A stretch of DNA of 44,591 bases from a bacterium (GTDB lineage: Bacteria > DRYD01): positions 44,457-89,047 of the forward strand of contig JAUQQQ010000008.1 in the NCBI GenBank assembly GCA_030549815.1. Direction: 5' to 3'. Within the stretch, counting starts at the first letter, position 1. Each line of letters opens with the position of its first letter. Under the pieces are notes generated by a model. It made no database searches. It worked only from the letters and a program-made list of their open reading frames with translations, and had not been told where the DNA came from. Of this stretch, positions 8,285 through 42,621 are shown in pieces. Position numbers and translations under genes: made by a program.

Positions 8285-8773
8285 TTATTTTACTAAGATT
8301 AAGGGATCTCCCTCTTTTACGAATTTCGAATTTTCTACTAAAATTTTCTTTACGATGCCGCTGTATGGGCTTTCTATTTCATTTAAAACTTTCATCGATT
8401 CTATAATACAAACTACTTGTCCTTTCTTTATTTCTTGTCCTTCTTGAATAAATGGTTCTGCACCTGGGAAAGGAGTAAGATAAAAATTACCACTTATTGG
8501 AGCTTTAATTACTAACCCATTCTCAATTTCTTCTTTGCTTTCTACATTTTCTATTTCTATATTTTCCACTTCTTCTGTAATTCTATTTCCAGTTTCTTCT
8601 TTATTTATTTGGGTATTGGGTATAAAAACTACTTTTTCGTTGGTTTGATAATTTTTCTTCAAAATTATTTTAAAACTTTCTTCTCCTTCTTTACTTTCAA
8701 TCTCTAATTCCTCTAAGTTTTCATCTTTGAATATTTTCGTTATTTTTGTTATTAATTCAAATTTTTCTTCCAT
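8285..8773 (-). CDS. accB: Biotin carboxyl carrier protein of acetyl-CoA carboxylase
   Basis: AccB carries the biotin that shuttles CO2 between biotin carboxylase and carboxyltransferase in fatty-acid synthesis. The C-terminal biotinyl domain (about 88-162) has IESMKVLNEI with biotinyl lysine K128; the common motif is EAMKxMNEI, so Ser replaces Ala. The 'thumb' region PFPGAEPFI is present. The N-terminus (ELITKITKIFKDENLEELEI) is the usual AccB alpha/beta segment, followed by an acidic linker. The gene begins 2 bp after mnmG ends. accC is not in the window. A second, lysine-less AccB-like gene lies at 41139-41636. Confidence 0.96.
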   Translation of the reverse strand: MEEKFELITKITKIFKDENLEELEIESKEGEESFKIILKKNYQTNEKVVFIPNTQINKEETGNRITEEVENIEIENVESKEEIENGLVIKAPISGNFYLTPFPGAEPFIQEGQEIKKGQVVCIIESMKVLNEIESPYSGIVKKILVENSKFVKEGDPLILVK

Positions 8774-13064: not shown

Positions 13065-13421
13065 TTATTTTCCTTTCTTATATTCTCCTGTTGAATAATC
13101 GTAATACCAGTATTCTGTTGGAAAACTTATCTTTATGTTTTCCCCGTAAATACTGTAAGGATCGTAGTAACTATAATAACTATATGAATAAGAGTAATCT
13201 TCATAGTATTTTGCTTTATATTTAAATGATGAAAGTGGATAGTAAGAATTTGTAAATGAATCATAAACCATTATTGGTCGGTAGCATCTTGTTGGTTTAT
13301 AATAATTGCAATAACTGGATCTGTGGTAACTATTGTAATAATAGTATCCACAATTACTTTTTGCTAAACTGATAAACATTATTTGGGTAATTATAAATAT
13401 TATAATTATCAAGTTTCTCAT
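13065..13421 (-). CDS. Small secreted tyrosine-rich protein
   Basis: I do not recognise a family. Residues 1-20 form a signal peptide (MRNLIIIIFIITQIMFISLA), with cleavage likely near SLAKS. The mature part is about 98 residues, of which 29 are tyrosine (near 30%), often as YY pairs or YS repeats (YSYSYSYYSYYDPYS). There are three cysteines after the signal peptide (in NCGYY, YCNYY and RCYRP). The ATG is preceded by GGGTGGGGGTGA. It lies alone, divergent from era and upstream of speD. The composition suggests an extracellular structural or adhesive role, or tyrosine cross-linking, but nothing shows this. A longer secreted Tyr/Asn-rich protein with a similar N-terminus lies at 41647-42621. Confidence 0.8.
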   Translation of the reverse strand: MRNLIIIIFIITQIMFISLAKSNCGYYYYNSYHRSSYCNYYKPTRCYRPIMVYDSFTNSYYPLSSFKYKAKYYEDYSYSYSYYSYYDPYSIYGENIKISFPTEYWYYDYSTGEYKKGK

Positions 13422-40036: not shown

Positions 40037-41134
40037 CTACTTAATAAAGCTTTCTCCTTTTATCAACCTTAAAACGTCATTGTATGAAACAAATAAAACT
40101 AATATTAATAACAATACTAATCCAGCTTTATGTAGAATTTCTTCTTTATCCGGCTCTATCTCTATCTTTCTATTTAACACTTTTGATAAACCTAATAATA
40201 TGTAATTTACAAAAATAAAGAATATTCTCCCACCATCAAGTGCAGGAAATGGTAATAGATTAAACAAGCCTATGACGATATTTATGAAACCTACTAACAT
40301 CATATACTGGTATATCCCACTGTTTGCAAAATCATACATTATTTTAGTTATTCCTATCGGACCAGCACTTTGCTCATATACTGTTTTTAATGGTATTGAC
40401 CCTGTAAATATACTCATTATAACTTTAAGATACTTCACTGTTAAATCATAAGTAGTAATAAAAGATTCTCTAATTCCTCTTAATATGTCTATTTTTATCG
40501 TTGGCTCTTGTTTTGGAGAAAAACCTATGAAAGAAAAATTCTGATCTTTATTGTATTCTGTTTTTACCTTAAATACTTTTGTTTCATTTCCTCTTTTTAC
40601 TTCTATTTCCAATACTTTATCTTTGCTTTTATGAATGTATTCAATCATTTTTTTCCCATCGTAATAATCAAATTTTATGTTATCTATTCTTGTAATGATG
40701 TCACCATTTTTAAGACCTACTTTCTCGGCGGGGCTTCCTTTCATTATCATTTGAATCTCTGTAGTTATTTGGTAAGTATAAATTGAAAAAAGAACAAAAA
40801 ATATAAATAAAGCAAGTATGTAATTAAATAACGGACCTAAGACTATTACAATAAATCTTGCCCAAAGTGGTTTAGAGTAAAAATTAGTCTCACTCAATAC
40901 TTCTCCTTTTTTGTATTCTTCCCCTTCGGGTAAAACATATCCACCAATAGGAAATAACCTTATACTATATTTTGTCCCATTTATTGTTTTTGACCACAGT
41001 TCTTTTCCTAAACCTATTGAAAATTCTAATACTCTTACATTAACTAGTTTACATCCTAAATAATGTCCATATTCATGAAAGAGTATAATAAAAAAGAAAG
41101 CAAGAACAACCAATATTATACTAATTATATCCAT
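40037..41134 (-). CDS. rseP: Site-2 protease RseP (M50 zinc metalloprotease)
   Basis: RseP cleaves membrane proteins within the bilayer, for example anti-sigma factors and signal-peptide remnants. HEYGH (about 20-24) is the HExxH zinc site in the first membrane helix. IRLFPIGGYV follows. One PDZ domain lies at about 125-200 (GSPAEKVGLKNGDIITRID). The third zinc ligand is in NLLPFPALDGGR, followed by the last membrane segment. Only one PDZ domain (E. coli has two), common in short bacterial forms; length 365. AAAGGA lies before the ATG, overlapping the stop of the AccB-like gene. Confidence 0.96.
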   Translation of the reverse strand: MDIISIILVVLAFFFIILFHEYGHYLGCKLVNVRVLEFSIGLGKELWSKTINGTKYSIRLFPIGGYVLPEGEEYKKGEVLSETNFYSKPLWARFIVIVLGPLFNYILALFIFFVLFSIYTYQITTEIQMIMKGSPAEKVGLKNGDIITRIDNIKFDYYDGKKMIEYIHKSKDKVLEIEVKRGNETKVFKVKTEYNKDQNFSFIGFSPKQEPTIKIDILRGIRESFITTYDLTVKYLKVIMSIFTGSIPLKTVYEQSAGPIGITKIMYDFANSGIYQYMMLVGFINIVIGLFNLLPFPALDGGRIFFIFVNYILLGLSKVLNRKIEIEPDKEEILHKAGLVLLLILVLFVSYNDVLRLIKGESFIK

Positions 41135-41138
41135 AGTT

Positions 41139-41636
41139 TTATATCCTTTCTGCTAATATTATATCCTTTCCAAAGTCTACCCAATCCTCTTGTTTTACAA
41201 AAATATCCATTATTCTGAATTTAAAATTTAATTCGATAGGATGTTTTATGTTTAAAATTTCAATCTCACCTATTTTTTTATTAGCTTCTATTTCTGTTTC
41301 CTTATTTACCCAATCTTCCAGTTTTATTGTTCCTACTAATGTTGATGAAATATAAAATTTATTATCATCGATGTATTTTAATTTAACTCCTCCCAAATCT
41401 TCTACACGTTCTAAAGATAAGTTTATTTCTTCTGGATTTTTTTCTTTTGTTTCTTTTTTCAAATCTATTTGTAAATCTTTTTTTATGTTTTTATCTTTTT
41501 GTTGTTTTGTAATAGGTTTAGTAATTTTTATCTTAAGGAAGCTTGTTCCATCTTTTTGCTCAAAATCAAAATATCCTATCTTATTATCTTTCATTATTTG
41601 GATCGCTTTTATAAAAATATCCTCTATTTTTGACAT
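41139..41636 (-). CDS. AccB-like protein lacking the biotinyl lysine
   Basis: The 165 residues follow the AccB layout. An N-terminal helix-strand segment (IEDIFIKAIQIMKDNKIGYF) is followed by a Lys/Glu/Asp-rich linker and a C-terminal biotinyl-type domain (about 95-165: SSTLVGTIKLEDWV ... FVKQEDWVDFGKDIIL). A gap-free alignment of the last 40 residues with AccB at 8285-8773 puts IEILN opposite IESMK, so N129 replaces K128. The nearest lysine is K131, two positions off. It therefore looks like a non-biotinylated paralogue. Plant BADC proteins are such paralogues and inhibit acetyl-CoA carboxylase; that is an analogy only. It lies 4 bp before rseP. Confidence 0.65.
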   Translation of the reverse strand: MSKIEDIFIKAIQIMKDNKIGYFDFEQKDGTSFLKIKITKPITKQQKDKNIKKDLQIDLKKETKEKNPEEINLSLERVEDLGGVKLKYIDDNKFYISSTLVGTIKLEDWVNKETEIEANKKIGEIEILNIKHPIELNFKFRIMDIFVKQEDWVDFGKDIILAERI

Positions 41637-41646
41637 TTAGAAATGC

Positions 41647-42621
41647 TTATTGAGAATTTATTATTATGGTATTTGCTACCAATTTATTGTTGTCAGAATT
41701 TATGCTTAATTCTACTTGTTTGTTCATTAAATTTCTTAATTCTTGTGTATTATTTAGTGGTATGTACTTTCCACTTTTTTTAACGAATATGCTTGAGTTT
41801 GGATTTATTTCTATTTCATAAATTTTATCTGATACTACGACTAATTTATTTTCATTAATATCTTTTATTATTCCTGTTATTTTGTTTGAATTGGTATTTG
41901 ATAATATTGATGAATTGTTATTTGCATAAATAAGATTGTTGGAATTGATTGTTGGTTCTTGTTTATAATAGTAAGGTGTTTTTTCTTGCATTTTTCCAAT
42001 GTAGTAATAGTTGGGAATTTGGCTTTCTGTTACTGATGACATAGTTTCATAGTAAAATCTTGGTGAATAATAATTATTTGCTAATAAGTTATTGTAGAAA
42101 TCGATGTTTTGAGCTAATGCAGGAGAACCTCCTATTGTATTACTGTTTTTTACAGGTACATAATTGTAGTAGTTTATTTTTGCTGTATATACATCAACTG
42201 TAGGGTATACCACTGATTGATAATCTACAGGTAAATACCCAACGTAGCTTACTTTATAAGGTGTTTGAATATTGTATTGTTGATAATTAGCTTCCCTATA
42301 TAAAATCTGGTATTCTGGTTTAGCTTCATTATTTTGCAAATAATTTACGTTTTGGTTATCAACTACTATTGATTTAACTACACCATCTTCATATTTTACT
42401 GTTACGTTTGCATTTTCAAATAAAGATGCGGGAGAGACTTTTTGTCCTGTATTATCTAAAACAGTTAAATCTTTAGAAACAGGTAAATTAAGAATGTCTG
42501 TATCGGTTTTTATTATAACACTATCTGCACCAAATCTAACAAATTTACCATTTATAACTTGCCCATAGCTTACCAAGCTTACCATGATTATTATGAGTAC
42601 TAAAACAATTAAATTTCTCAT
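41647..42621 (-). CDS. Secreted Tyr/Asn-rich protein with two DUF5666-like beta domains
   Basis: A signal peptide occupies residues 1-20 (MRNLIVLVLIIIMVSLVSYG). Residues 21-90 (INGKFVRFGADSVIIKT ... VSPASLFENANVTVKYEDG) and 245-324 (ITGIIKDINENKLVVVSD ... NLMNKQVELSINSDNNK) both resemble the small OB-like beta domain of DUF5666. The region between them, about 150 residues, is rich in Tyr, Asn and Gln (YYSPRFYYETM, NYYYIGKMQEKTPYYYKQEP). No catalytic motif is visible. AGGAGGG precedes the ATG. The N-terminus is very like that of the Tyr-rich protein at 13065-13421. An extracellular structural role is a guess. Confidence 0.75.
   Translation of the reverse strand: MRNLIVLVLIIIMVSLVSYGQVINGKFVRFGADSVIIKTDTDILNLPVSKDLTVLDNTGQKVSPASLFENANVTVKYEDGVVKSIVVDNQNVNYLQNNEAKPEYQILYREANYQQYNIQTPYKVSYVGYLPVDYQSVVYPTVDVYTAKINYYNYVPVKNSNTIGGSPALAQNIDFYNNLLANNYYSPRFYYETMSSVTESQIPNYYYIGKMQEKTPYYYKQEPTINSNNLIYANNNSSILSNTNSNKITGIIKDINENKLVVVSDKIYEIEINPNSSIFVKKSGKYIPLNNTQELRNLMNKQVELSINSDNNKLVANTIIINSQ

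Follow-up and report, generated by a model that had tools for sequence, protein, structure and literature searches.

A lysine-less AccB paralogue of Candidatus Calescibacteriota and its counterparts in other bacterial phyla

Introduction

Acetyl-CoA carboxylase (ACC) commits carbon to fatty-acid synthesis, and how the enzyme is assembled is still debated. The locus described here raises the question of what an AccB-like protein does when it lacks the lysine that carries biotin and a normal AccB is encoded in the same genome. It lies in a window of 44,591 nucleotides (the whole stretch of DNA analysed; contig JAUQQQ010000008.1, positions 44,457 to 89,047, assembly GCA_030549815.1) from a hot-spring relative of Candidatus Calescibacterium, and an initial annotation had flagged its product, here P0001, as a possible bacterial counterpart of the plant BADC proteins. 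Lysine-less relatives of BCCP are known from plants and the bacterial ones are new as far as the open-access literature shows: BADC was called unique to plants in a 2025 paper (PMC11926652), and no earlier report of a bacterial lysine-less AccB was found in the open-access papers searched.

Predicted architecture of P0001

The P0001 gene (41139..41636, minus strand) reads from an ATG at position 41636 down to 41139 and encodes 165 amino acids. The AlphaFold2 model consists of a helix (residues 2–17) and a hairpin (20–38), which together form the AccB-type N-terminal module also matched by the profile (residues 2–38; 41523..41633, minus), followed by a charged linker of low confidence (residues 41–77, pLDDT < 50; 41406..41516, minus) and a confident barrel of the biotinyl type (residues 84–165; 41142..41387, minus). 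Model, profile and structure comparison thus agree that both the AccB N-terminal module and the biotinyl barrel are present, which bears out the layout that the initial annotation had read from this minus-strand frame. The comparison with BCCP structures that it had proposed also returned a biotinyl barrel and not some other fold, with VIA-align Z scores of ~10 (E. coli 1bdo 10.2 and 4hr7 9.8, Arabidopsis BCCP1 9a87 9.7).

Homology to AccB extends over the whole protein. When P0001 is aligned by BLASTP over its full length with the window's true AccB, the two are 24% identical (E = 0.04) and N129 falls opposite K128, as had been claimed. Profile-profile comparison with an AccB alignment from which Calescibacteriota were left out gives E = 3e-13; none of 200 column shuffles equalled the profile score of the whole protein, of its N-terminal third or of its C-terminal domain. 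BCCP domains head both the profile and the structure matches, the fold being one that is also common to lipoyl domains, and the family profile finds weak BCCP matches only (E about 0.5) among solved structures. A Pfam scan of P0001 gave no family match, neither to AccB-type domains nor to other families of the biotinyl/lipoyl fold (HlyD, GcvH, E2, RnfC), and an NCBIfam scan of P0001 and six other lysine-less proteins gave no model above its cut-off; on TIGR00531 (cut-off 115.2) P0001 scores 16.1 bits, and the true AccB of the same divergent genome 98.3.

The strands of the biotin hairpin span residues 121–127 and 130–135 in the model, so that its tip is formed by L128-N129, with N129 (codon AAC; 41250..41252, minus) replacing the biotinylated lysine. 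P0001 has no E(A/S)MK motif, and the P-x-P thumb of ACC-type BCCPs falls in an alignment gap. At the level of the predicted structure it is confirmed that P0001 is a full-length AccB-like protein with asparagine at the hairpin tip of the barrel, in place of the biotinylated lysine.

Conservation in Candidatus Calescibacteriota

Orthologues with 28–53% identity to P0001 are present in all five further genomes of the family, giving a set of six Candidatus Calescibacteriota genomes that includes the window's. N129 is invariant in all six, as is EILN in place of the biotinyl motif, and residues G123 and I125–I130 make up the densest invariant run of the family, a density equalled in 2 of 10,000 shuffles. 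The idea that P0001 carries a modification after all, at a different lysine or of a different kind, is very improbable; the protein is lysine-rich and K131 lies near the tip, but two of the six orthologues have Tyr or Ser in place of K131, there is no replacement lysine at the tip, and in other phyla the site is occupied by Gly, His or Gln. The attachment at K131 that the initial annotation had weighed against its own reading therefore fails, and with the asparagine conserved its suggestion of an AccB relative without biotin, in the manner of plant BADC, is supported.

Comparison of two genomes (G002 and G003) gives a dN/dS of about 0.11, and the paralogue gene is under purifying selection. 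It does diverge faster than AccB (52% versus 62% identity between members of the genus), as a decaying, functionless duplicate might; we give this explanation hardly any credence, since besides the low dN/dS the frame is open in all six genomes and conservation is strongest exactly at the hairpin.

A single-sequence search of the genome contigs with P0001 found no matches, and an alignment-based contig search matched this phylum only, such that the EILNI motif is confined to Calescibacteriota. One locus (L018, JAPYWL010000021.1) is placed in the window organism's family by genome search, yet is labelled Deltaproteobacteria bacterium.

A true AccB is also encoded in each Calescibacteriota genome with the paralogue, and neither AccB was found in a genome of another family (G006, 73% complete). 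In the window the true AccB gene (8285..8773, minus) encodes an ESMK motif with K128 and matches TIGR00531 (98 bits, E = 6e-28) and PF00364 (E = 5e-19). The genome also encodes AccC, AccA- and AccD-like carboxyltransferases and biotin ligase, and P0001 thus coexists with a true BCCP, BC, CT and biotin ligase. Searches of five genomes (G000–G004) located AccC, carboxyltransferases and biotin ligase in G000, G002, G003 and G004, and carboxyltransferases alone in G001 (71% complete). Contigs C9, C2 and C5 of G000 (L108, L109, L112, L110) carry two AccC genes, a 541-residue acyl-CoA carboxyltransferase and a second biotinyl protein (SAMKME), pointing to an acyl-CoA carboxylase besides ACC.

Lysine-less AccB proteins in other phyla

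Lysine-less AccB paralogues occur in at least three phyla, with Gly, Asn, His, Ser or Gln at the site. A family-profile search covering 386 diverse genomes led to genome G028, where the best match is a lysine-less AccB with STVG for EAMK, encoded directly upstream of accC; the two genes sit between dnaE and asp23-amaP-nusB, the true AccB being elsewhere, and the AlphaFold2 model of the lysine-less protein has Gly114 at the same hairpin tip. At a threshold of E ≤ 0.001 the G028 sequence has matches in 83 of the 98 genomes of its phylum, some of these matches, mainly weak or second ones, being true AccBs. Gly occupies the lysine position in all 31 sequences first aligned, and accC follows directly on 36 of the 37 lysine-less genes examined, at a distance of 0–75 bases or, in one case, with an overlap of 8.

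The gene order, together with a report of accBC-yqhY operons in Fusobacteria (PMC5437119), suggests that the G028 phylum is Fusobacteriota. YqhY, a member of the Asp23 family encoded by the third gene of such operons, was reported to control ACC in B. subtilis, and the fusobacterial operon was counted among them (PMC5437119); the genomes examined suggest that its 'accB' is one of the copies without the lysine.

A second profile search with a check of the lysine column found further families in which the site reads EAMN, KAMN, ESMH, KGIS, FALG, RVLG, DSLG or NSMG. Several of these copies adjoin accC, those of G124 and G078 preceding it. In the G023 phylum 19 of 30 loci inspected are lysine-less (Gly, Asn, His or Gln), which is not a frequency because the search query was itself lysine-less, and most of the 19 precede accC. 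The case for a BADC-like protein is stronger than the initial annotation stated, because lysine-less paralogues are found repeatedly in other phyla, for the most part next to accC.

A true AccB was found in all 17 chosen genomes that were searched, encoded elsewhere than the lysine-less gene in the genomes checked, and in some cases the full AccB is joined in one protein with an OadA/PycB-type carboxyltransferase. Four such proteins (L227, L228, L237 and L240), from genomes that also have a lysine-less AccB, carry a complete AccB (N-terminal module, linker and biotinyl domain) at the C-terminus of the carboxyltransferase. Genome G454 has three AccB-like genes, one canonical, one lysine-less beside accC, and one for a biotinyl protein without the patch described below (L153, L154 and L155).

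Reciprocal retention of the lysine and an acidic-aromatic patch

In canonical AccB the lysine is followed 25–26 residues later by Glu and Tyr or Phe (E. coli GQPVEF). This acidic and aromatic patch is kept in 68 of 71 lysine-less copies and in 69 of 73 AccBs from genomes without such a copy, and is lost in 31 of 34 biotinylated AccBs from genomes that have one. These counts leave out seven sequences, namely PCC-type carriers and those from genomes in which two copies bear the lysine, and a gap-free recount left all three counts unchanged; Fisher values for them are not true probabilities because the sequences are related, and much of the pattern could be explained by a single ancient duplication, the counts being non-independent.

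When 68 offsets were scanned without selection, +26 and +25 ranked top as the positions that set the biotinylated AccBs encoded in two-copy genomes apart from all others. What distinguishes the lysine-less copies is the lysine itself, the prolines of the thumb, which is generally lost, and the carrier residues near the tip. The reciprocal state is seen in Calescibacteriota, the G028 and G023 phyla and several further families. The pair in the window fits the rule: P0001 keeps Val153-Asp154-Phe155 (41172..41180, minus), and the true AccB has lost the patch, with Val152-Lys153-Glu154 (8312..8320, minus) at the site. Two sister-genus genomes retain just the aromatic in their paralogues (VQY), and three proteins (L149, L153 and L195) are exceptions that retain both lysine and patch.

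In two genomes (G062 and G205; L202–L204 and L190) there are two AccBs that both have the lysine, one with VNS at the patch and the other keeping the patch and having an odd tip, IEAMKIIKDV; such pairs are possible intermediates of the split.

In a tree too shallow to separate one origin from several, a recent duplication within Calescibacteriota is neither favoured nor rejected (AU p = 0.39). A shared origin of every lysine-less copy is likewise not rejected, the tree under that constraint scoring 10.7 log units above the unconstrained one (p = 0.66).

The main rival to an adaptor is a dominant-negative regulator that would sit on AccC where AccB belongs and reduce ACC activity, the role originally put forward for BADC. 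A protein that keeps the N-terminal AccB module and a putative docking patch and cannot carry biotin would suit this, but an inhibitor needs no loss of the patch in its biotinylated partner, whereas 31 of 34 partners have lost it, the gene usually stands first in the accC operon, which would be an odd site for a pure inhibitor, and a recent plant study argues against the inhibitor model there (PMC11926652). We regard this rival as unlikely, and the inhibition that the initial annotation had carried over from plants is not specifically supported, reciprocal motif loss fitting a cooperating subunit better.

Neighbours of the paralogue gene

Four bases downstream of the paralogue is a gene for an rseP-family M50 site-2 protease (40037..41134, minus; TIGR00054 209 bits, cut-off 147.55); in three relatives the two genes share 14 bases. 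Ten bases upstream is a conserved gene for a 324-residue protein with a signal-peptide-like start (41647..42621, minus), for which no confident Pfam or NCBIfam match was obtained. The order of secreted protein, paralogue and rseP is kept in all six Calescibacteriota genomes, and rseP synteny of a lysine-less AccB is seen in this phylum only. Elsewhere in the window, positions 13065–13421 (minus) encode a small tyrosine-rich protein with a signal-peptide-like start.

The bacterial counterpart adjoining rseP in the initial annotation is thus conserved in six genomes, and was undersold in that the recurrent neighbour elsewhere is accC. The link to envelope stress drawn from the same neighbour did not gain support, the synteny being restricted to one phylum and RseP-family proteases having many substrates. 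Redeployment of the barrel with RseP in a membrane or envelope role, unrelated to carboxylases, would account for the constant company of rseP and the secreted protein, but the closest analogues elsewhere adjoin accC, P0001 shares their motif pattern (V-D-F kept, patch lost from the true AccB), and neither signal peptide nor membrane segment is apparent in its sequence; we consider it distinctly improbable.

Proposed role

P0001 is probably a non-biotinylated AccB paralogue acting as a BADC-like, non-catalytic subunit of the biotin-carboxylase half of ACC or of a related AccC-dependent carboxylase. As the Calescibacteriota gene adjoins rseP and not accC, homology and the motif pattern are what connect it to ACC, and OadA-AccB fusions in several genomes mean that an enzyme other than ACC may in some cases be the partner. 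The wider proposal, that in many bacteria AccB has become an obligate pair of proteins, a carrier without the AccC-docking patch and a biotin-less adaptor with it, usually encoded before accC, has in our judgement an even chance of being right. Loss of the lysine from a copy that retains features lost by the working copy suggests that the carrier's job is divided between two proteins, as in plant chloroplasts.

Under this proposal the two jobs of AccB, carrying biotin and holding the complex together, would be shared out, with the ordinary AccB retaining the lysine, thumb and carrier residues for what would be the first, and the lysine-less copy retaining the helix-hairpin of the N-terminus together with the V-(D/E)-aromatic patch for what would be the second. 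Having kept these two elements, the lysine-less copy is likely to dock on AccC and to recruit the biotinylated AccB. Judged from sequence, it would bind AccC or AccB physically, the patch is a putative docking surface, and we infer that the effect would be assembly or activation and not inhibition.

Published parallels favour an adaptor. The biotin carboxylase tetramer of Chloroflexus is held by AccB-type hairpins and not by the barrel (PMC11077971). In Arabidopsis no binding was seen between BCCP1 and BC alone, and it is BADC that enables the complex (PMC11926652). Ser190 of BCCP1 shifts with BADC3 and further with BC (PMC11926652), and by the residue numbers of that paper it lies 25 residues after the biotinyl Lys165, where E. 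coli has the Glu that paired bacterial AccBs lose.

Relation to known systems and implications

P0001 is like canonical AccB (TIGR00531; E. coli 1bdo, 4hr7) in its helix-hairpin N-terminus, charged linker, biotinyl barrel and V-(D/E)-aromatic patch, and unlike it in having no lysine, thumb or EAMK motif. It resembles BADC1–3 of the plastid ACC of plants, which are BCCP relatives without the biotinylation motif that occur alongside a true BCCP in a heteromeric ACC, and the likeness extends to the pair, plant BCCP also having no acidic residue 25 positions after the lysine. Unlike plant BADC, the proteins described here are bacterial, known from sequences, spread over several phyla and often encoded in an accC operon, with Asn at the site in Calescibacteriota and Gly, His, Ser or Gln elsewhere. 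The AccE or epsilon subunits of actinobacterial acyl-CoA carboxylases are, to our knowledge, not AccB homologues. They are similar in role, as small non-catalytic subunits that aid assembly (PMC11926652). YqhY is likewise a non-catalytic partner from the same operon, but of unrelated fold.

If the proposal is true, the plant BCCP-BADC pair is an example of an arrangement that is widespread and may be ancient, and not a plant invention. Many genes probably named accB would be unable to carry biotin, and the pattern would point to an unrecognised functional patch 25–26 residues after the biotinyl lysine. With biotin-less AccBs in the accC operons of entire bacterial lineages, BADC-type assembly could then be tested on simple proteins from bacteria, some of them thermostable.
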